Origin: Couchioplanes caeruleus
GTDB taxonomy: Bacteria; Actinomycetota; Actinomycetes; Mycobacteriales; Micromonosporaceae
Assembly: GCF_023499255.1 (NCBI RefSeq)
Contig: NZ_CP092183.1
Span: 69,501 to 133,500 of the forward strand
DNA length: 64,000 nt
Reading direction: 5' to 3'
Positions within the stretch are counted from its first letter, which is position 1; each line of letters starts with the position of its first letter. This document shows, one piece after another, positions 51,239 through 62,650 of the stretch. Under the pieces are notes generated by a model that did not search any database, had not been told where the DNA came from, and worked only from the letters and a program-made list of their open reading frames with translations. The position numbers and the translations under genes were made by a program.

Positions 51239-51312
51239 GCGGGTGTAGTTCAATGGCAGAACATCAGCTTCCCAAGCTGACAGTGCGGGTTCGATTCCCG
51301 TCACCCGCTCCA
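51239..51312 (+). tRNA. tRNA-Gly (anticodon CCC)
   Basis: A complete cloverleaf: acceptor GCGGGTG/CACCCGC, D-arm GTTC...GAAC, anticodon stem TCAGC/GCTGA around TTCCCAA (anticodon CCC, reading GGG), and a T-arm with TTCGATT. CCA is encoded. A TACAGT -10 lies about 10 nt upstream. Its 3' half is the attachment site of island 2, and its natural terminator now lies at 62551. Confidence 0.96.
51269..51312. repeat. Left 44-bp direct repeat (attL) in tRNA-Gly
   Basis: The 44 bases from TTCCCAAGCTG to the CCA end are perfectly repeated at 62504-62547. This is the usual footprint of tyrosine-integrase insertion into a tRNA 3' end; the tRNA gene itself is kept intact. Confidence 0.93.
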
Positions 51313-51912
51313 AAGTTCTCCCTGCTCAGGCCGCATTTTGACGGGCTTATCTATCGTTACTGATCGATCTCTGACGACCGTTTGTTGGGGAACGAGCCGC
51401 GAAGGCTGCTCGAAACCCGGCGCAATCTCGGCCAACGGCCGTGCACAAACGGCCTGGTATTCGGGCAAGGCGGGCGCGATCAGAAGGCAACAAGTGGCAC
51501 TGTCAGATCGGAAATCTGACGCTACTGCGGTGGCGTCCGTTCTGGGCGGTTCCGCTCAAGTGCCGCATCTCGGCTTCTCCGTGCCTCCATCGCCCGCGCG
51601 GCGGTCGCCCTACGGGGATCACCCCCGCGCGCCACAAGGCGGGCCGGGCACCGGGCGCCGGTCACCGGGGTAGGACAGCGCGGCGAGGCTCCCGGTCGAG
51701 GCATCGAGTTCCGGCCCGATGCTGTCCTACGTGGAGATTCGCCCTCATCGACCAACGCCCCCTGCCGACCAGAGCCGACCTGCAAGATCACGTTCGAAAA
51801 TTCTCACTGGCATAAGACCGACGCCTGGCGCGGAGCGGGCTCGGACGCGGGCGTGCGTACGATTGGCGGCGACGACAAGCGGCATTCGGCCGCCAAAGGG
51901 AGGCTGAAGACG
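51313..51912. other. 600-bp left island end without a gene
   Basis: Contains TTGTTGGGGAAC (51382-51393), shared with the right end of the island (62377-62388), and a 10-bp inverted repeat, GTAGGACAGC/GCTGTCCTAC (51670-51679 and 51721-51730). No frame has convincing coding features. Confidence 0.6.
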
Positions 51913-54093
51913 TTGAACGCTTTGCCGGTCGTGGACGTCGATCGCATCGACGGGAAACCCCGCACCGTGCGCGAGCTGTTCACCTCGCGCAAGTACAGCG
52001 TCGACTATTACCAGCGCGAATATGCGTGGACCCAGGCGAACGTCAATGAACTTCTCGACGACCTTGCCGGCAGGTTTCTCGAGGCATGGGATGAGCGCCA
52101 CGAACGCCAAGAAACTCTCACGTACCGCCCATACTTCCTCGGGCCTATCGTGACGAACAACCGCGGCGGGACGCTGTTTCTCGTTGACGGGCAGCAGCGG
52201 CTGACGACGCTCACACTCCTGTTGATCTACCTGCTTCATCTCCAAAAAGCCCGCCCCTCTCACGACCAGGTGGACGTCAGGCAATTCATTGCGTCCACAC
52301 GGGTGGGTCGATGGAGCTTCAACCTCGACGTCGAAGACCGCCGCGCCTGCATGGAATCGCTGCTTGAAGGCAAGCCCCCTCCGGTTGCCCCAGGGGACGA
52401 CTCAGTGGCCAACCTCTGGGCCCGGTACCAGGACATCGAGCAACTCTTTCCGCAGGAACTGAAGGACCACAAGCTCCCGTACTTCATCGATTGGTTCCTC
52501 GAGCGCGTCGCCGTCGTGGAGATCACAACCTCCGACCAAGAGATGGCGCTCGAGGTGTTTGAGACGATGAACGACCGCGGTCTCCGGCTCACGACTACGG
52601 ACATGCTGAAGAGCTATCTGCTCGCGATGATCCAAGAGCCGAAGGAGGTCGAGGCGGCGAATCGGCTCTGGCGCGGGCGTGTGGCGGCGCTGAGTAACCT
52701 TGTAGACAAGGGAGATTTCGACTTCATACGCAACTGGCTGCGGTCCAAGTACGCGGAGACGATTCGCGAGCGCAAGAAGGAAGCCGTCCCGGGCGACTTC
52801 GACGTCATCGGCACAGCGCCACATAAGTGGGTGCGCGATCACCGGGAGGAGATTGGGCTTCGGAAACCGGGCGACTTTGCCGCGCTGATCGAGCGCGACT
52901 TCGACCGTCTTTCTGGCCGTTACCTTCAGCTTCTCAAAGCGTCACAGCAGTTGACGCCGGGCTTCGAGGAGGTCTTCTACAACGCGTGGAACGGGTTCAC
53001 GTTCCAGTACCCACTGATCCTCGCCGCACTATCGCCGTCCGATGATGACGAGACCTTCCGGCGCAAGACGCGGATGATCGCCGGATGGGCCGACATCTTC
53101 GTAGCCCGGCGCATCGTCAACTACCGCAACTTCGGGTACTCGACCGTCGCGTACACGATGTTCAACCATGTCAAGGACATCCGGGACCTCGACGAGGCGG
53201 AGCTCGCCCAGGTGTTGGGCGACAAGATCGCGGAGATGGACGACGGGTTCGACGCCGTCGCCAATCTAGGCCTGCACCAGCGCAACGGGAACCAAATCCG
53301 CTACCTCCTCGCCCGAATGGCGGCCTGGTTGGAGGACCAGTGTGGCGGGGCACTGACCTTCGCCGACTTCGTCAGTCGCCAGCGAACGCACCCGTTCGAG
53401 ATCGAGCACATCTGGGCCAACCATCCCGACGAGCACCCTGAGTTGGCCACGGACCAGGCTTTCTCCGACCAGCGCAACAAGTTCGGCGGGCTTCTCCTAC
53501 TACCCAAGGACTTCAACGCGAGCTACGGGGACAAGCCGTATGCCGAGAAGTTGGAGCACTACTACGGGCAGAATGTGCTGGCGAAGTCGCTCCACCCAAG
53601 GTGCTACGAGAACAACCCAACGTTCCTACGGACGCGCGCCGCACACGGCTTGCCGTTCGCCCCGGTCCCCGAGTTCACAGTGTCGTCATTCAGCGAGCGG
53701 CAGGAACTGTACCGGCGACTATGCGAAGTCGTCTGGGATTCAAGCAGACTAGGCATCGACGTACCAGATAACGTTGCGCGGTTGACGGAAGAACAGCAGC
53801 CAAAACGGCACTACGGCGTCACGCTGAAGGATCTGCTCGCTGCCGGCCTGCTGCGCGACAGACAGGCACTGGTGGGCGTCAGGAGTGGAGTGACTTACAA
53901 CGCGACCGTGACGGCTGAGGGTCGGGTCGAGCTCGACGACGGCCACCTCGAGGAGTCACCTTCCACGGCCGGTGCTGCCGTACTGGGAGCCAAGTCCTGC
54001 AACGGGTGGACATTTTGGCAGACCGACACCGTGCGAGGGCTTGTCCGTCTAAGTCGTGTGCGAGACGAGTACCTGGAACGGCGAAGGCCATGA
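51913..54093 (+). CDS. DUF262/HNH nuclease with RAMA-like C-terminus (GmrSD-like)
   Basis: A 726-residue protein. The N-terminal DUF262 domain (about residues 20-300) has YYQREYAW at 33-39 and DGQQRLTTL at 92-100. The C-terminal DUF1524/HNH nuclease contains FEIEHIWANH, with E498 and H499 as likely metal/catalytic residues. The last 90 residues (about 635-726) match a RAMA domain pattern (LKDLLAAGLL ... SPSTAGAAVLG ... NGWTFWQ). This suggests a nuclease that cuts modified foreign DNA, as GmrSD and related type IV enzymes do. TTG 51913 is chosen because GGGAGG precedes it; GTG 51853 would add 20 unlikely residues. Confidence 0.85.
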   Translation: MNALPVVDVDRIDGKPRTVRELFTSRKYSVDYYQREYAWTQANVNELLDDLAGRFLEAWDERHERQETLTYRPYFLGPIVTNNRGGTLFLVDGQQRLTTLTLLLIYLLHLQKARPSHDQVDVRQFIASTRVGRWSFNLDVEDRRACMESLLEGKPPPVAPGDDSVANLWARYQDIEQLFPQELKDHKLPYFIDWFLERVAVVEITTSDQEMALEVFETMNDRGLRLTTTDMLKSYLLAMIQEPKEVEAANRLWRGRVAALSNLVDKGDFDFIRNWLRSKYAETIRERKKEAVPGDFDVIGTAPHKWVRDHREEIGLRKPGDFAALIERDFDRLSGRYLQLLKASQQLTPGFEEVFYNAWNGFTFQYPLILAALSPSDDDETFRRKTRMIAGWADIFVARRIVNYRNFGYSTVAYTMFNHVKDIRDLDEAELAQVLGDKIAEMDDGFDAVANLGLHQRNGNQIRYLLARMAAWLEDQCGGALTFADFVSRQRTHPFEIEHIWANHPDEHPELATDQAFSDQRNKFGGLLLLPKDFNASYGDKPYAEKLEHYYGQNVLAKSLHPRCYENNPTFLRTRAAHGLPFAPVPEFTVSSFSERQELYRRLCEVVWDSSRLGIDVPDNVARLTEEQQPKRHYGVTLKDLLAAGLLRDRQALVGVRSGVTYNATVTAEGRVELDDGHLEESPSTAGAAVLGAKSCNGWTFWQTDTVRGLVRLSRVRDEYLERRRP

Positions 54094-54472: not shown

Positions 54473-57400
54473 TCATGACGTCGGGCGCGCGGTGGGGTTG
54501 GGTGCTGGATACGGCCAGGTTTGAACCCGAACCATCACTGGCCGGCTCTCGCGCGCGATGTCTAGCTTCAGTTCGATCCCCGGCGGCCACTCTCGCAGCA
54601 GCTCGACGACGTCGGTCGCATGCATGACCGCGCCGCCGGCAGCCGAGACGATGACATCGCCGGGTAACACCCCGGCGCGGTCGGCTGCGCCGCCTGGCGT
54701 GACCGCCGTGACGACCACGCCAGCCGGCCGGTCGGCTAGCGTCACGCCGATGGAGGCCCGTGGCGGCTCCGGCACGCGTGACTCTGTGGGGCGGGGAGGC
54801 CGGCCCAGCGCCTGCCCGATCTCGAGGACTGGCCTGCCCATGTAGAGGATCGTCATCGCGGCGACCGCAATGGCCGACCAGCGCATCCAGGGCAGATACG
54901 TTTCGTCCAACGGCGCGGCTTTCTCAACGCCGGCATCGACCATAGTTCCGTGCAGGTCTTCGTAGAAGTCGGCGGTGCGCCCATGCAGGACGCGAGCTAT
55001 GCCTCTCAGGTCTGTGTGCTGCGGTCCGATTGCCACCTCAGCGATACGATTGAGAAGATCGGAGCCGTCGGCCGCGTAGTTGCGGAGCCATTGTTCGGCT
55101 TCGTTGTCGTCGAACACCAGCGCCAACAGAAGCGTTTCCGGCCGGATAAGTTCGTGTCCCAGATGCTCGGAGAGTGCGTCGGCTCGGCGGAGCGTGGCGG
55201 CCAGGTCGGCCGAAATCAAGACGTCGGTCTCGTCGATCGTCAACGTGACTGTGCCCTGGCTAGCCTCCCGGCCGAGGAGATCCGGCGGCACCGGCCCGAG
55301 CCCGGCCTGGCCTAAGCTTCCCCAGGTCCCGGGATCACCGTCCAGGACGGCGAGGAGCGTTTGGAGGGTGCCCAACGGTGTGTGGTCGGTCGGAGTTCGG
55401 ACCGACCTCAGACGACGGCTGAGCGCGGGCTCAACGGGGAGTCGGAGCGCGAGTCGCGCGCCGACCGGTACGTCCGTGGCGGGCAGCCCGTCTAGGCCCC
55501 AGTGTGTCGGTCCATGAACCTCCTGAAGGGCAGGCCCGGCAACGGTCGTCCACACCGCGAACGACGCCCAAAGCGCCGCGGGTACCCGGCGGCCGGTCCG
55601 GCGCAGCTCGGCCAGGACGCCTTGCTGCGTCGCCGACACCAGGGATGCGCCCACCGGTAGGCCGGCCAGCACCGGGGCCAGGACACTCGCCGCGTTCGTG
55701 TCGGCGACAGGTGCGATGCCGCCGATCACGGTGGACGCACCACGCATGAGACAGGCCATTGAGAAGCCGGTCGACTCCTGCCCTGAGCGCACAGCCATTG
55801 AGTTGATCCAACAAGCGCCGAGCACTACGGTAGGTGGCCAGCGAAGGCCCAGTGCCGAAGCGGCGGTCACCACTGATCCGTCCCGAAGCCGCAATGCCTG
55901 ATCGAGGCCGGTGCTGCTTCCGGCGCCGTGCACTGAGATTACGGCGGCGTCCGGCCTCGGCTCCGCGTCGAGCGCCTCACGCAACTCAGCGAGATCAGCG
56001 CACGAGCGGACGGTCATGGCCTCTCTGAGCGACTCCCACTGCCGCCTCTCGGCCGCCGTCGCGTCGAGTTCGTCGTCGAGGTGCACGACGGCGACCCGCG
56101 GCCGATAGGGGTCCTTGGCCGGGCGAGCCTCGGACAGCATCGACAGGGCCGGAACGAACGCGACGGCGGCGTGTTCGGCGAGCACCTCGACTCTGTCCCC
56201 CGCTACCCGTACCGGCAAGCCGGACAACGGCAGGCCGGCGATCGGCCCGTCAGGCACGATGAGCAGCTCAACGACGGAACCGGACCGGCTAGTGTCCCGC
56301 AGTACCTCGGTCAGACCGGGCGGGAAGACCGCCCGTGCAATGTCCCTCCAGCAGTCGGCGTCCAACGGGAGCGCGCCGTAGATCCACTTCAGCGGAGAAG
56401 GGTCAGCCTCTGCCATGGCGTCGAGGATGCCCACCGGTGACAGGAAGGCGGCCTTGTCCCGGCCGTCCGGGTCCTGGTCTATCCGGGACCGGTGCAACGT
56501 CACCCCGGATACCGGCGACATCAACGCGGTGTGGAAGACCCAGCCGAACTCGTCGCGAAAACAGTGGTACAGCAGAGCCACCCGGTGGCCGACGCGGCGC
56601 AGTATCGTGTCGTAGTCGACAGCAAGCATCACGACCGACTCCCGGAGCATGACGAGCGTGTCGGCCACCGCGGTACGAGTCTTGCCGGCGGCCTTCCTCA
56701 GCTCCATGCCGATGTCCTCGACAGCGTCCGGAGCCACGCGCATCTGCTGTTCGATTTCGGCCAGCGCGGTGATGTCCGCCTGCAGCTGCGCGATGGTTGG
56801 CACGACGTCACCGCTGATCAGCGCGGAGGCCGCCGTACGATGCACCGACTCGATCAGCCAGACGCCCAGCTCGCCGGCCTTCGCCGGGTTGCTGCGTACG
56901 CCGGTGGTTAGCAGCGTGAACACTCGGGCGTGCAAGCGGTGGTCTGCTTGTACCCACTGCGCGCGGGATGCTTCCTCCGGCAGCGTAACCCGATATTCTT
57001 CGAGGGCGTGCAGCCCGGCTCGTATGATGTCCAGTGCGTGGTTCTCCTGCCGCGGCTCTGAGTAACCGGAGGCGACGGCGTTCGCGAACCCGCGGACCAG
57101 GCTGCGGGTGGCCCGCCGGCGGTCACCGATATCCATCAACAGGTCATGTGCCTCTAGGAATGCGCTCGCCGCGTCGGCCGGCCGCTGCCTGTTTTCGAAT
57201 AAGTGGCCCGCCACCACCAAGGCGTGACCCGCCGCCTGGGACATGCGCAGCACCTCCGTGACCGAAATACGGCCCGTCGGCAGCGTGCCTGGCAAACGCT
57301 GCGACAGCCCCACCACCGCGTAGGCCAGCCCAATCGCGTCGGGCTCGGCGCTGGCGGCGACCGCTCGCGCCTCCGCGACGAGGCTGAGAAGGGCCGCCGC

Positions 57401-58423
57401 CGGCTTGCCGCGCCACACGGCCGCCGCCCTTTGCCGGTCGCTGCCCTGGAACGCTGTCGGCGTTTCGCCGTCGCGGGCATCCGGGTCGAACGCGATCTCG
57501 ATGATCAGCGACGTCAGGTCCGCGGTCCTGCCCCGGGGCCGGGCGAGCGCCTCGTTCAGCAACCGCAATGCCCCGGCGTGATCGCCGATGACCCGCAGAA
57601 ACTGAGCCCGCGCGCTCAACACAGCCGACTCTTGCCGCAGAACCGGGTCGTCCATCGCCGTTCGGGACCGACGGCCAGCCTCCACCAGTGCCCCGTTGCG
57701 CAACTCGAACTCAATGGCTCTGGCCGTGCAGTACGCGGCGGAGACGACATCGTCGCTGGCGCGGAACAGTGCGATGGCCTCATCGAACCATTGCTGCGAC
57801 ATGTTGGTGGCGACACCGGGAATGCCGACGTCACCTAAAGCGCAGTTGCGCAATGCCACCCAGCCGCGGGGACGCAACGACGCCCGAAGAGCCGGCCGGT
57901 AACCCGCCACGGTGGGTCGGCGGTGCTGCCGGTGTGCCCGGGTGTCACGGCAATGCAGCCGATGTGCGGTCACAACCGCCAGCAGCAGCGGTCCATACCG
58001 CCCCGGCACGGTGCCTGGGATCCCAGCCAGGTACCAGCCCGATCCGACGACGCACGCTGCACGGACCAGCATCGGCACCACGGCGTCCGACCAGTCCGCG
58101 TGTGCGGGCGTACGAGCTGGACCTCGCCCCACACGCCGAACGGCCACGTACGCAAACGCCGCGACCAGCAGCGGCAGGTAGCGCCACGCTCCGGACTCCG
58201 CCGCCCATCTGGCGTCGCCGCCCAGACGCCGGACCAGTGCAGCCGGAATCTCGTACCGGTTGAATGCCCGGGTCCAGCAAATCCCCGCAAGCGTGAGAAC
58301 CGCCAGCGCAATTAGGTCATCGACCGCGCTGCGCGCGGCAGTGATAGCACGAAATGCGAACGGATGCACAAAGACCGACAGGGTGGCATCGATACCCCGA
58401 ACGGAGGATATTTTCCGAGTCAC
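54473..58423 (-). CDS. CHAT caspase-like membrane protein with Clp_N-like and PDZ domains
   Basis: About 1,316 residues from GTG 58423. Four N-terminal transmembrane helices lie at about 35-55, 80-98, 112-136 and 142-156. A long helical, TPR-like region follows (about 200-560). A CHAT peptidase domain spans about 620-985, with His832 (VISVHGAGS) and Cys871 (VVLGACWI) as the dyad. A Clp_N-like repeat lies near 1070-1130 (GHELIRPETLLLAL). A further helix lies at about 1180-1200, and a C-terminal PDZ domain at about 1217-1300. CHAT proteases cut proteins during immune or stress responses; this one is membrane-bound. The start is uncertain: the frame is open further upstream, but that stretch overlaps the divergent gene at 58501. 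Confidence 0.8.
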   Translation of the reverse strand: MTRKISSVRGIDATLSVFVHPFAFRAITAARSAVDDLIALAVLTLAGICWTRAFNRYEIPAALVRRLGGDARWAAESGAWRYLPLLVAAFAYVAVRRVGRGPARTPAHADWSDAVVPMLVRAACVVGSGWYLAGIPGTVPGRYGPLLLAVVTAHRLHCRDTRAHRQHRRPTVAGYRPALRASLRPRGWVALRNCALGDVGIPGVATNMSQQWFDEAIALFRASDDVVSAAYCTARAIEFELRNGALVEAGRRSRTAMDDPVLRQESAVLSARAQFLRVIGDHAGALRLLNEALARPRGRTADLTSLIIEIAFDPDARDGETPTAFQGSDRQRAAAVWRGKPAAALLSLVAEARAVAASAEPDAIGLAYAVVGLSQRLPGTLPTGRISVTEVLRMSQAAGHALVVAGHLFENRQRPADAASAFLEAHDLLMDIGDRRRATRSLVRGFANAVASGYSEPRQENHALDIIRAGLHALEEYRVTLPEEASRAQWVQADHRLHARVFTLLTTGVRSNPAKAGELGVWLIESVHRTAASALISGDVVPTIAQLQADITALAEIEQQMRVAPDAVEDIGMELRKAAGKTRTAVADTLVMLRESVVMLAVDYDTILRRVGHRVALLYHCFRDEFGWVFHTALMSPVSGVTLHRSRIDQDPDGRDKAAFLSPVGILDAMAEADPSPLKWIYGALPLDADCWRDIARAVFPPGLTEVLRDTSRSGSVVELLIVPDGPIAGLPLSGLPVRVAGDRVEVLAEHAAVAFVPALSMLSEARPAKDPYRPRVAVVHLDDELDATAAERRQWESLREAMTVRSCADLAELREALDAEPRPDAAVISVHGAGSSTGLDQALRLRDGSVVTAASALGLRWPPTVVLGACWINSMAVRSGQESTGFSMACLMRGASTVIGGIAPVADTNAASVLAPVLAGLPVGASLVSATQQGVLAELRRTGRRVPAALWASFAVWTTVAGPALQEVHGPTHWGLDGLPATDVPVGARLALRLPVEPALSRRLRSVRTPTDHTPLGTLQTLLAVLDGDPGTWGSLGQAGLGPVPPDLLGREASQGTVTLTIDETDVLISADLAATLRRADALSEHLGHELIRPETLLLALVFDDNEAEQWLRNYAADGSDLLNRIAEVAIGPQHTDLRGIARVLHGRTADFYEDLHGTMVDAGVEKAAPLDETYLPWMRWSAIAVAAMTILYMGRPVLEIGQALGRPPRPTESRVPEPPRASIGVTLADRPAGVVVTAVTPGGAADRAGVLPGDVIVSAAGGAVMHATDVVELLREWPPGIELKLDIARESRPVMVRVQTWPYPAPNPTARPTS

Positions 58424-58500
58424 CGTTGCAGGTCCTGCGCCACTTCGCGCCGCGGACTGTACTGTCCTGCCGGACGTCCGTACATCGAAGGGTCCGCCAC

Positions 58501-59034
58501 ATGCCGTCCGATTCTCTGCAGACTCGGATCTTCGCGTGGGATCAGGGTCATCAGTGCCTCTTGTTCTTCGGCAGCGAGCCCGGGGAACTCCCGGACGACA
58601 AGGCAAGCGCAGAGATCTCCGTGGTGACGTCGGCCGTTGCGGTCGGGCCAACCCGCGGCGCCACCCAGGATCTCGTTCAGGAACTGGCTTTAGGTGTCCT
58701 AAGTAACGCCGCGTGGACCGGGCTGCTGGGGTCGCTGACCGCAACCGCCGCATATCTCGCCCGTCGGCGCCGCCAAGCCCCTCCAATGCGTCAGCCGTTC
58801 GAGGTCATCGAACGGCTGGAGGCGGCGGGACGTGCGGCGGTCGGCGCCGAAGCGGTGGACCCCGCGTATGTCGACATCGCCCTCCAAGCGGACGGCACGT
58901 GGCGGGCCGAGGTCACCTGGCACGACGCCCGCTGGATAGCCCGGTGCGACGCCGCAGGAACCGCGATGCACCTCACCCGATCGCCCAAGCCGGGCGGAAG
59001 CGATGACAACGGACTATCCCCCGTACCGTCATGA
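58501..59034 (+). CDS. CHAT-associated protein 1 (177 residues, one membrane segment)
   Basis: First gene of the operon divergent from the CHAT gene. A globular N-terminus is followed by a helix (about 53-68), a likely transmembrane segment (about 70-87, AAWTGLLGSLTATAAYL) with an RRRR stop-transfer, and a small alpha/beta C-terminal domain (ADGTWRAEVTWHDARWIARC). The family is not recognised. ATG 58501 has GAAGGG upstream. Its stop overlaps the next start (ATGA at 59031). Confidence 0.75.
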   Translation: MPSDSLQTRIFAWDQGHQCLLFFGSEPGELPDDKASAEISVVTSAVAVGPTRGATQDLVQELALGVLSNAAWTGLLGSLTATAAYLARRRRQAPPMRQPFEVIERLEAAGRAAVGAEAVDPAYVDIALQADGTWRAEVTWHDARWIARCDAAGTAMHLTRSPKPGGSDDNGLSPVPS

Positions 59035-59888
59035 CGAACGCTGCGCGAGAGTGGGGAACCGTCGATGGAGGAAGCGACCGCGATACGGCTGGGACCGACA
59101 CAGCCGCGGTAAATGATCAATCAGGTTGCCTGCCCTGGTCGCTGATCAGCCTGCTGCTCGTGGGTCTACTCGTCGTGGGCGGCGCTTCGCTCAGCCATGA
59201 GCGCTTCCAGCAGGCCAGCCGGCTGCGGCAGGCCGCGCTGTCGCTCGTCGAGGGCAACGACGACGCCGCGGCGAGACTATGGATGGGCGTACTCGACGAC
59301 GGCCACCGGATCGCCGACGCCTCCGCTGGCGCGGCTTGCGCGCTGTGGAACCTCGGCTACCAGGACCAGGCGCTGCTCTACTACCGCGACGCCATGGTGA
59401 CCGCCGGCCGTGCCGGGCCGACGCGGCGATCACGGTGCTTCTTCACCGACCTCGCCGCGCACCGCATCAAGATCGTCCGACTCGACGCCACCTACACCGT
59501 CCTCATGGCCGATACGGGGGCGGCAGCGCCGCTGCTGCGTGGCATCGTCGAGGGTTCCGCGCCGCCGGGCGCCGCGTCCGCATTCGCGGAGGCCATCGCT
59601 CCCTACCGGGAGCCCGACATCGCACAACGGCTGTTGGCCGCCGCGTGCCTGGCGGACCTGACCGGACTGAAACTAATGGCCGCAACGTACCTCAACCTCG
59701 CCACCGTCGGCACCGTTCGCAGCGCCGGCGCCCTCAAACAGTGCGCGTTCGACATGGTCGGCGCTTACGTGACCGCGAAGGTGGACGGGCGGGAGGTCTT
59801 CCAACCCAAGGACCGCGCGCGACGCTGGTACACCCCTGGCAAATCACCGGCACCCGCGCCAGCCGACCTCGCACGGACCCTGCCGTGA
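59031..59888 (+). CDS. CHAT-associated protein 2 (285 residues, membrane plus helical repeats)
   Basis: A short acidic N-terminus precedes one transmembrane helix (about 35-53, PWSLISLLLVGLLVVGGA). About 210 residues of TPR-like helices follow (including LWNLGYQDQALLYYRDAM), probably outside the membrane. No catalytic motif is seen. It overlaps genes 1 and 3 by 4 nt each, so it is translationally coupled to both and probably forms a complex with them. Confidence 0.75.
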   Translation: MTNAAREWGTVDGGSDRDTAGTDTAAVNDQSGCLPWSLISLLLVGLLVVGGASLSHERFQQASRLRQAALSLVEGNDDAAARLWMGVLDDGHRIADASAGAACALWNLGYQDQALLYYRDAMVTAGRAGPTRRSRCFFTDLAAHRIKIVRLDATYTVLMADTGAAAPLLRGIVEGSAPPGAASAFAEAIAPYREPDIAQRLLAAACLADLTGLKLMAATYLNLATVGTVRSAGALKQCAFDMVGAYVTAKVDGREVFQPKDRARRWYTPGKSPAPAPADLARTLP

Positions 59889-61156
59889 CGGACGGCCCCG
59901 TAATGGCCGAAGACCCGGAAGCCGGCGGCGCTCCAGAAATCGATGGCGGTCCGGAAACAGTTGAAGACCCGATCCTCCCGGTGATCACCGGGCTTACCGA
60001 GGTGGCTCGGGGCGCGGTCGCAAAGGCACGGTTCAGAGGCGGTCGGCGGGTCAGCGACCTGCACCTGTTCCAGGAGCTGCTGGAGCACACCGGCGTGGTG
60101 GACCTCCTCGAGGCGCTGGACGTCGAGGTGCCGGAGCTACGCCGCCGGGTGCAGCTGCGTTCGGGCTTCCGCCCGCCCATCACCACGGACTCGCCTGACG
60201 GACGGATGACCGCACAGCCAATCGTCTGGAACGCATTCGAGCTGGCGGGCGAAGGTGCCCGACACGCGGGACGAGCCGCCGAAGCAGCCGACGTCCTGGA
60301 AATGCTGCTGCACCTGCCCCCAGGCGACGCCCATCTCATGCTCCGCGAGGCCCGGGTTAACCTGGCCGCCCTGACCGCGTGCCGCGGCGACGATGCGCTT
60401 GGCGTCGGCAAGCTTAGCCACGTCGACCACCGGCACGTTGGCGACATGCCCTTCCGGCGCCGCATGGCGTGGACGACGTGCCACCTGCCGCTGCTCGCCG
60501 TGCACACAGTGCTCGTTGCCGTCTCGCTCATCCCCGCGACCGTCCTCGGCGGTGTGTTCTTCCGGCTCGCGGCTGTGGTCGTCGGCGCTCAGGCGCACAC
60601 GACAGCGTCGGCCTCCTTGGGATGGAGCCGTGACTTATTACTCCTCCGCAAAAGCGACGATCCGGCGATTCGCCACGCTCTCGCACACCTTCTGGCCCGG
60701 ACGCTCATGCTGCTGTCCGCCATCGTGATGCTGATGCCTACGGCGGTGCAGTACGCCGTACTGCACGAGGCTCCGCCCATGCTCTTCAACGCATTGAAGA
60801 TTTTCTGGGTACAGCGCGAGGGCGCGCTCGGCCTCCTGATCATGTCACTGCTGGACCTGCCGTACCGCGAAATACTGCTCGTCTGGTGTGGATTGGCATT
60901 TGCCTACGCCGCGGTACCGCCGACTTCGCTGCTAGACCTGTTCCGGGGCGCGTTGTCCACCGCCCCCCGCAGGGCGGGGGTGACACGTCGCGTGCTGCTG
61001 GCGATGGTGACTCCTCTGTGGCTGCTGGGTCGGGCGTGTGACACGCTGCCCCGGTGGACCCTGGTGCAGCGCGGAGTGCCGCTCGGACCCGGCTGCGTGC
61101 TGGTACCGGCGCTATGCATCGCCGGCTGGGCGAGTCTGGCGCTGTACGCAGCTTGA
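59885..61156 (+). CDS. CHAT-associated protein 3 (423 residues, Clp_N-like repeats plus membrane domain)
   Basis: GTG 59885 overlaps the stop of gene 2 (GTGA). Residues about 36-90 and 112-165 look like two Clp_N (Clp repeat) units, for example GRRVSDLHLFQELLEHTG and then AAEAADVLEMLLHLPPG. After a basic segment, five or more hydrophobic helices fill about 200-423. The Clp_N-type repeat is shared with the divergent CHAT protein, which argues that the two work in one complex or bind the same partner. No protease or rhomboid motif was identified. Confidence 0.75.
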   Translation: MTDGPVMAEDPEAGGAPEIDGGPETVEDPILPVITGLTEVARGAVAKARFRGGRRVSDLHLFQELLEHTGVVDLLEALDVEVPELRRRVQLRSGFRPPITTDSPDGRMTAQPIVWNAFELAGEGARHAGRAAEAADVLEMLLHLPPGDAHLMLREARVNLAALTACRGDDALGVGKLSHVDHRHVGDMPFRRRMAWTTCHLPLLAVHTVLVAVSLIPATVLGGVFFRLAAVVVGAQAHTTASASLGWSRDLLLLRKSDDPAIRHALAHLLARTLMLLSAIVMLMPTAVQYAVLHEAPPMLFNALKIFWVQREGALGLLIMSLLDLPYREILLVWCGLAFAYAAVPPTSLLDLFRGALSTAPRRAGVTRRVLLAMVTPLWLLGRACDTLPRWTLVQRGVPLGPGCVLVPALCIAGWASLALYAA

Positions 61157-61343: not shown

Positions 61344-61637
61344 CTACCAACCAAACGGTTCGTCCGACGGACCGATGAACGGCGCTCGCTCCGCCTGCTC
61401 TGCGTAACGGCTTAGGTCTGTTGAGTAGACGGGGCGATGCGACCACGAATCGCCGCCGTCGATACCTGCGGTATGCCCAGTCCGAACCTTGTTCTCGATT
61501 GCAAGTGCGTTGAGGTATCCAGCGATCGCAGCCTTGGCGATGTGCTCGACCGCTTCGGGTGATGGCGCCGACCCTTCAAGCTTCTCCGCCGCGCTATGTG
61601 CTCGCCACATCGCGCGTGTCAGCGGGTCACTGTGCAT
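61344..61637 (-). CDS. 97-residue protein, copy 2 of the shared cassette
   Basis: Identical in length to the gene at 35542-35835, with 86 of 97 residues the same by eye, including the whole C-terminal IGPSDEPFGW. ATG 61637 has GGAG at the right distance. It is encoded downstream of the tail-anchored partner (61672), as in element 1, but the cassette is inverted relative to element 1. Confidence 0.75.
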   Translation of the reverse strand: MHSDPLTRAMWRAHSAAEKLEGSAPSPEAVEHIAKAAIAGYLNALAIENKVRTGHTAGIDGGDSWSHRPVYSTDLSRYAEQAERAPFIGPSDEPFGW

Positions 61638-61671
61638 GCGGATCTCCAATCTGCGGAGCCTCTCCTGCTGG

Positions 61672-61944
61672 CTACTTGATTAACGCGATGATCGCGGCAA
61701 CGGCGGCCACGGCCGCAAGGACAGTGTTCGCCCAAGTGAGGCGATATGCGCCGCGGGCGAGCGCCTCCGTCGCTGCCATGGCGCGATTGCGGTCGCGCCG
61801 GTCGAGCTCCTCCATGTAGTAAGCCGTGCCAACATGCGTACTCACGGCGTGCCCGTCGTGCTCGGCAATCAGTTCTTCGTCGCTTGCCGCGCGTAGATCA
61901 GAGATCTTCCGTACCACGCGTCCAGGGTACGGCTTGACTGGCAC
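61672..61944 (-). CDS. Small tail-anchored protein, copy 2 of the shared cassette
   Basis: A 90-residue homologue of 35241-35507, with 73 of 85 aligned residues identical by eye. The same C-terminal transmembrane segment (LTWANTVLAAVAAVAAIIAL) is present. The start is GTG 61944. It precedes the 97-residue gene by 34 nt, the same spacing as in copy 1. Confidence 0.72.
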   Translation of the reverse strand: MPVKPYPGRVVRKISDLRAASDEELIAEHDGHAVSTHVGTAYYMEELDRRDRNRAMAATEALARGAYRLTWANTVLAAVAAVAAIIALIK

Positions 61945-62503: not shown

Positions 62504-62547
62504 TTCCCAAGCTGACAGTGCGGGTTCGATTCCCGTCACCCGCTCCA
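62504..62547. repeat. Right 44-bp direct repeat (attR)
   Basis: A perfect copy of the 3' part of tRNA-Gly (anticodon loop to CCA). It marks the right end of the island. Excision by recombination with 51269-51312 would leave one intact tRNA gene next to its terminator. Confidence 0.93.
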
Positions 62548-62550
62548 CGT

Positions 62551-62593
62551 ACGGAAGCCCTGGTCAGGACCGATGGTCCGCCAGGGCTTCCGT
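62551..62593 (+). terminator. Original tRNA-Gly terminator
   Basis: ACGGAAGCCCTGG pairs perfectly with CCAGGGCTTCCGT around a 17-base loop, just 3 nt after attR. It would end the tRNA transcript before the island arrived. Confidence 0.75.
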
Positions 62594-62650
62594 CATTCTG
62601 AGTGACGCTGGATCAGGCACGGGCCATGAGCTCGTCCAACGTTGTGTCAC

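Follow-up and report, generated by a model that had tools for sequence, protein, structure and literature searches.

A predicted membrane CHAT-PDZ protease and its small recurring partner on a tRNA-integrated genomic island of Couchioplanes caeruleus

Closest described systems

CHAT domains are caspase-like. One of them is found in a predicted membrane protease of 1,316 amino acids (aa) encoded in a 64,000-nucleotide (nt) stretch of the Couchioplanes caeruleus genome (NCBI RefSeq assembly GCF_023499255.1, contig NZ_CP092183.1, positions 69,501 to 133,500 of the forward strand; hereafter the window, in which coordinates are given). Three smaller genes, g1, g2 and g3, run divergently from it, and all four lie on a genomic island integrated in a tRNA gene. 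In our best reading the locus is real, mobile and rare, and is a variant of caspase- or CHAT-centred conflict systems that we did not find described. The protease is probably an envelope-sensing membrane protein with a constant partner that would act in defence or cell death, with a topology, trigger and substrate that we infer below.

The two-gene EACC1 conflict systems were predicted from genomes as membrane-linked caspase systems (Kaur et al. 2020, PMC7159879; for this and the other papers cited, statements refer to the portions of text available). They combine a small constant component with a caspase-superfamily protein whose C-terminal domains vary; at least a third of these variable domains carry transmembrane (TM) helices, and the caspase partners are prevalent in actinobacteria. 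The present system is similar in that a CHAT gene stands beside the small g1, both at the Couchioplanes locus and at four of six other loci. It differs in that the pair is divergent, the CHAT domain lies mid-protein behind N-terminal membrane segments, and g1 is not EACC1 by either Pfam or profile comparison. No match to EACC1 (PF19953) at E≤1 was found in Pfam among 11 g1 members, and hhalign comparison of g1 with EACC1 gave E values of 0.1 and 0.12, the EACC1 reference set consisting of 17 proteins from 20 loci of 31 matches (L029, L037 and L044 were omitted for want of a clean frame). The Couchioplanes genome itself carries two EACC1 genes (C1 1278650 and 5109050), so EACC1 genes coexist with the CHAT-g1 system.

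For the GAP1-N2 conflict systems (PMC7159879) the likeness is one of layout only, with a core GTPase there and CHAT here. The EACC2-caspase proteins (PMC8195603) similarly join a caspase domain to variable C-terminal domains, some of which are PDZ and others TM-linked receptors, but PDZ is listed there as intracellular. Csx29 of type III-E CRISPR is a TPR-CHAT protease with a catalytic His/Cys pair, and it cleaves a partner encoded in the same locus (PMC10028731). The CHAT domain, the His/Cys pair and, tentatively, the TPR part are common to both, but Csx29 acts together with Cas7-11 in an RNA-guided complex, whereas membrane segments, Clp_N and PDZ are present here. No Cas gene was found among the identified genes of the island; Cas7-11 and CRISPR arrays were not searched in the remaining window or genome. 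Borvo (BovA) is a phage-defence system with a CHAT protease domain (PMC10952713) and is among the systems enriched in Actinobacteria (PMC10482375), but the PADLOC BovA model matches only residues 842-914 of the protease (73 residues, E 0.0088). The HtrA/DegS proteases also have a PDZ domain, envelope sensing being a presumed analogy, but CHAT is found here; Pfam shows no trypsin family at E≤1, and the HtrA-type models of NCBIfam align with the protease only over its PDZ domain. CHAT is not mentioned in the available part of PMC12419801, and no CHAT-Clp_N-PDZ system was found described among the PMC papers listed (titles and abstract starts; supplementary tables not covered). Within that scope, this agrees with a preliminary description, made from the DNA letters, which knew of no described defence system with such a domain set.

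The CHAT protease, its family and its partners

The genes and the parts of the protease are as follows.

54473..58423, minus strand: membrane CHAT protease, 1,316 aa, in the order membrane segments, possible TPR, CHAT, Clp_N, membrane segment, PDZ (Pfam, family alignment)
55556..56347, minus strand: CHAT domain, residues 693-956 (Pfam E 1.2e-16)
55928-55930 and 55811-55813, minus strand: codons of His832 and Cys871, both invariant in 14 of 14 family sequences
55037..55183, minus strand: Clp_N repeat, residues 1081-1129 (own-genome scan, protein scan, profile)
54818..54874, minus strand: C-terminal membrane segment, residues 1184-1202
54521..54754, minus strand: PDZ domain, residues 1224-1301, predicted extracytoplasmic (Pfam PDZ_2 E 4e-10)
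58501..59034, plus strand: g1, 177 aa, conserved small CHAT partner with relatives beside CHAT genes elsewhere
59031..59888, plus strand: g2, 285 aa, one clear membrane segment (hydropathy); no relative in the loci examined
59885..61156, plus strand: g3, 423 aa; several membrane segments follow an N-terminal part that is helical in a low-confidence model; no relative found

The protease frame starts with GTG and is separated from the first divergent gene by a 77-nt gap (58424-58500), while g1, g2 and g3 follow each other with 4-nt overlaps, suggesting one transcript. This confirms the protein length, start spacing and overlaps given in the preliminary description. Moreover, the G+C content by codon position fits the coding frames of a GC-rich genome. 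Pfam, NCBIfam and PADLOC gave no match to g1, g2 or g3 at E≤1.

The CHAT domain (PF12770) scores 61.5 bits against a curated cut-off of 24, and the predicted dyad, the two residues proposed earlier, would be the catalytic pair by analogy. By domain and dyad, the 1,316-aa protein is a CHAT protease, with proteolysis predicted. The PDZ domain was likewise confirmed. The Clp_N-like repeat was upheld as well: it scores 25.4 bits in the own-genome scan, over the Pfam cut-off of 20.7, and 18.5 bits, under it, in the protein scan. Residues ~1070-1136 match a profile of the other Clp_N repeats of the genome with E 4.4e-5; this profile was built from 11 of the 12 genome repeats, one real repeat (L079) being left out. 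The N-terminal membrane helices and a further helix behind CHAT were seen as hydrophobic segments, with one near residue 1193 in 14/14 family sequences by hydropathy. For the TPR-like repeats, also proposed, only a weak Pfam match was obtained (TPR_2, E 0.033).

The family alignment contains 14 sequences, the Couchioplanes protease and 13 relatives. Seven of these came from the protein database, where the searches scored only ~8,000 candidates sharing most words; 84,980 species genomes yielded seven loci, six of which were used (L021-L026). L027 was dropped because just 48 residues matched. The congener locus L005 (27% over residues 93-962) was also kept out of the family, and a search for g1, g2 and g3 found none there. 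Of the 67 genus genomes scanned, only the own one contained the protease at full length. The family is rare and patchy.

At E≤0.01 in Pfam, CHAT was found in all 14 sequences, PDZ in 11, SecDF_P1_head in two and neither in one; the PDZ score of L025 is under the curated cut-offs. The sequence without either domain, P0009, ends just past the last hydrophobic segment. By these matches, the domain behind the last membrane segment is shown to be variable across the family: PDZ, SecDF-P1 head or none. At the same threshold, Clp_N was found in three of the 14. Conservation is highest in the CHAT part, and the Clp_N region ranks last or last but one (P0001 compared with four relatives).

Relatives of g1 were found divergently beside the protease in four of the six other loci (L021, L023, L024 and L025). 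In two Streptomyces, the pair forms a single shared block.

L021:9367-14443 and L024:9367-14440: g1 and CHAT protease, with SecDF_P1_head replacing PDZ

This block (5,078 base pairs (bp), 85% identity) is bounded by the ends of g1 and of the protease gene, and nothing else is alike at E≤1e-10 within the 23.5 and 19.4 kb compared. The ratio of nonsynonymous to synonymous substitution rates (dN/dS) is 0.21 for g1 and 0.32 for the CHAT protease, by which both are under purifying selection in this pair. Two further Streptomyces matches to g1 are identical to those of L024 and L021 and were not recounted. The protein database contained nine g1 proteins, the Couchioplanes one included. In genome samples, g1 was found in 1/396 (phylum), 2/354 (family), 2/392 (another genus) and 1/335 (class), with the own genome counted within the phylum, family and class samples. 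In a different genus of the same bacterial family, a g1 relative with 39-42% identity is followed on the same strand by a TPR-CHAT gene (L065:6244-10215). The product of this gene (1,145 aa, CHAT E 6.6e-43) is distant from the Couchioplanes protease (BLASTP E 0.092, in the CHAT part). Being found beside the membrane protease and before a TPR-CHAT gene, g1 is thus CHAT-associated in two settings. Two weak g1-like matches in other genera (E 4e-4) were rejected as chance, neither a CHAT nor a g1 profile match being found nearby.

At the six other loci, no relative of g2 or g3 turned up in the stretches fetched, which were 10-25 kb long and in some cases cut close to the genes; the absence applies to those stretches. 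Of the two, only g3 was also searched in the protein database, where the 7,991 candidates scored out of 5.8 billion proteins included no relative. The three-gene partner operon proposed earlier is present at the Couchioplanes locus and was not seen in those stretches. The whole set of four genes, suggested as a test of co-occurrence, was not seen again; the pair of protease and g1 was. As far as the compared loci go, the recurring unit is two genes, not four. The partners had all been called membrane proteins, which holds for g2 (one clear segment) and g3 (several), g1 being weak in this respect.

Two further features of the partners were not supported. No Pfam match for TPR was found in g2 at E≤10. 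Similarly, for the two Clp_N repeats proposed in g3, two scans, one of them with HMMER filters, gave no Clp_N match at E≤10. Against the Clp_N repeat profile the best E of g3 was 0.024, near the best of 100 shuffles (0.047), and hhalign against the protease's own Clp_N region gave E 0.33. The single-sequence AlphaFold2 model of g3 has a predicted local distance difference test score (pLDDT) of 49, and residues 119-157 match TPR_14 at a chance-level E of 1.5. The preliminary description also had Clp_N repeats shared by protease and partner; this is not supported for g3, and a comparable arrangement was seen in a relative.

L022:5094-15252: four-gene operon of Solirubrobacter phytolaccae, in the order 339-aa protein, 441-aa P0013, two tandem CHAT proteins

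In this operon PDZ is found in the second CHAT protein only, and the 339-aa protein belongs to no recognised family. P0013 matches the Clp_N-type region of the protease family with E 1.8e-5 (best of 51 control open reading frames (ORFs) 0.011; best of 60 shuffles 0.04), with a profile that includes the Solirubrobacter protease from P0013's own locus. Against the Clp_N repeat profile of the Couchioplanes genome, its E is only 0.014 (best of 100 shuffles 0.036). A module common to protease and partner is supported by these matches in this one relative; for P0013 the name Clp_N is weak.

The tRNA-Gly island and gene neighbourhoods

The island and its other genes are bounded and marked by the following features.

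51239..51312, plus strand: tRNA-Gly(CCC), the integration site (ARAGORN; Rfam tRNA 72 bits)
51269..51312, plus strand: attL, 44-bp 3' part of tRNA-Gly, a perfect direct repeat with 62504-62547
62504..62547, plus strand: attR, 44-bp copy of the tRNA 3' end (44/44 bp match to attL)
62548..62631, plus strand: stretch, hairpin-like by eye, next to the intact tRNA-Gly in congeners (adjacency in 10/11 loci) and displaced here
51853..54093, plus strand: 746-aa type IV restriction-like protein with GmrSD_N, GmrSD_C and RAMA (Pfam E 3e-32, 2e-6 and 4e-19)
61344..61944, minus strand: two small candidate ORFs of 101 and 90 aa, at the island's right end

The locus is a tRNA-integrated genomic island of 11.2 kb. 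The empty-site test was made on 11 loci, fetched with right flank, from 11 of 25 other matching genomes. In 10 of the 11 congeneric loci the site is empty, an intact tRNA-Gly being followed immediately by the sequence that is found here past attR, and in eight of these ten the left-flank piece also matches (E≤1e-6). With the 44-bp repeats, these empty sites show that 11.2 kb were inserted into tRNA-Gly(CCC). With the right flank as a 903-base query, 24/67 genomes, the own one included, have a match inside its first 87 bases, and two more match other parts of the query. The G+C fraction is 0.659 in the island, 0.718 to the left and 0.675 in the short right stretch.

The large genes of the island are those of the GmrSD-RAMA protein, which has PADLOC matches of the HEC-06, Orf5 and SspE types, the protease and g1-g3, the remainder being small ORFs. 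The four small ORFs scanned had no Pfam match. No integrase was seen among the scanned ORFs; those in the end gaps are at most 158 aa long and were not all scanned. In the eleventh congener, L053, two partial copies of the 44-bp repeat lie ~216 bp apart with no intact tRNA-Gly; either the same site was used by something else or this is a remnant.

In relatives, g1 and CHAT of the Catenulispora stretch (L023:66-15158) are flanked on one side by a tRNA-Arg and two phage-type integrases and on the other by a STAND-type nucleoside triphosphatase (1,702 aa; NPHP3_N E 3.8e-8, NACHT 1.2e-4, under its cut-off). A second copy of the tRNA end was not found within this contig. L025 has a transposase-type integrase downstream. 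Seven flanking genes were scanned at L021, L024 and L026. They encode a cytochrome bd oxidase, an ABC transporter, an APH-type kinase, an RNase_T-type exonuclease and three proteins without matches; the exonuclease gene (E 6e-6) adjoins g1 in L021. At L024:18122-19009, ~3.7 kb from the CHAT block, we also noted an APH_6_hur family phosphotransferase.

Proposed mechanism and rival explanations

The preliminary description saw a defence-like setting for a membrane CHAT-PDZ protease and a partner, a view supported and strengthened by the mobile island, the restriction-type neighbour, the conserved g1 and the variable C-terminal domain. We give an even chance to a membrane-embedded system based on a CHAT cysteine protease, borne by a mobile defence island, in which PDZ triggers partner cleavage and thereby arrest or death. 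In this scheme PDZ outside the membrane would read exposed protein C-termini or another envelope disturbance, candidates being phage entry, lysis proteins and misfolded secreted proteins; an envelope-damage or phage trigger is our inference. The signal would cross the last membrane segment to the Clp_N-CHAT unit. The activated protease may then cut g1, a locus-specific membrane partner (here the multi-TM g3), or both, freeing an effector that would arrest or kill the cell so that phage or plasmid fails to spread. g1 would be the constant regulator or the first substrate, and both the extra partners and whatever domain follows the last segment would be exchangeable. A membrane sensor-protease whose activation leads to partner cleavage, in defence or cell death, is favoured among other things by Csx29, which cleaves a partner encoded beside it (PMC10028731).

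A more ambitious version, which we hold only tentatively, is that of a distinct mobile family of caspase-like immunity systems, in which a TM CHAT protease, sensing the cell exterior through an exchangeable domain (PDZ or SecDF-P1 head), would with g1 cut locus-specific membrane effectors and so kill infected cells from the membrane, some effectors sharing a module with the protease, as in Solirubrobacter. Judged from sequence, this could be a cell-defence switch not described before. If its sensor domain lies outside as predicted, such a CHAT protease would couple events at the envelope to proteolysis in the cytosol. As a small protein that could be substrate or regulator, the recurring g1 is a concrete first handle; the Couchioplanes island and the pair of genes shared by two Streptomyces are ready units for transfer to laboratory strains.

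The charge pattern of the protease (5 R/K against 1 D/E before the first segment, 10 R/K against 1 D/E after residue 157) favours the N-terminus and middle part inside and PDZ outside. With the N-terminus inside, the TPR-like, CHAT and Clp_N parts would be cytosolic and PDZ outside. PDZ outside with CHAT inside needs four N-terminal segments. By hydropathy, four were seen in 7 of 12 sequences with an intact N-terminus and three in 5.

Several points weigh against the proposed sensor-protease. The Couchioplanes protease is among the five with three N-terminal segments, which would put CHAT outside. The same hydropathy cut-off also marks stretches within CHAT itself, and around the C-terminal position P0011 and L026 have at least two segments; hydropathy and charge are all that the topology was read from. 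Furthermore, g1 is not clearly a membrane protein (best 19-residue hydropathy 1.25, cut-off 1.5), and its profile had no match in L022 or L026. The protease family was not found in viral contigs, nor, with the Couchioplanes protein as query, in plasmids. No clear defence family was present among the seven flanking genes scanned. Finally, PDZ domains are more often associated with the control of envelope stress.

This last point leads to an envelope- or secretion-stress protease with a DegS-like role, regulating gene expression or membrane quality, that was transferred and has no part in defence. The family PDZ profile finds its best matches in the PDZ parts of Do/DegP/DegQ, DegS and RseP-type chains ranking lower, the SecDF-P1 head of two members hints at secretion machinery, and the seven flanking genes scanned at three loci include no clear defence family. 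We nevertheless consider it rather unlikely, as protease and g1 are rare and patchy (full-length protease in 1/67 genus genomes) and are island cargo beside GmrSD-RAMA. Still less probable, in our view, is a toxin-antitoxin-like pair stabilising the island, with the CHAT protease as toxin and g1 as inhibitor. The tight g1-CHAT pair common to two Streptomyces as one block agrees with it, and, since no integrase was seen in the island, retention by addiction would make sense; however, the protease is large, with sensor-like parts, and g1 was not matched in two of the six other family loci.

g2 and g3 might also be an unrelated membrane pair merely on the same transcript, protease and g1 forming the system. 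The lack of relatives at the other loci, and for g3 among the candidates scored, agrees with this, but the 4-nt overlaps with g1 suggest one transcript, and in the Solirubrobacter operon too the CHAT genes are accompanied by two more proteins, one of which seems by eye to have membrane-like segments; we regard an unrelated pair as possible but doubtful.

At the left end of the window, two Clp_N repeats were found at 1281-1658, in an 876-aa frame that we guess to be ClpB-like.

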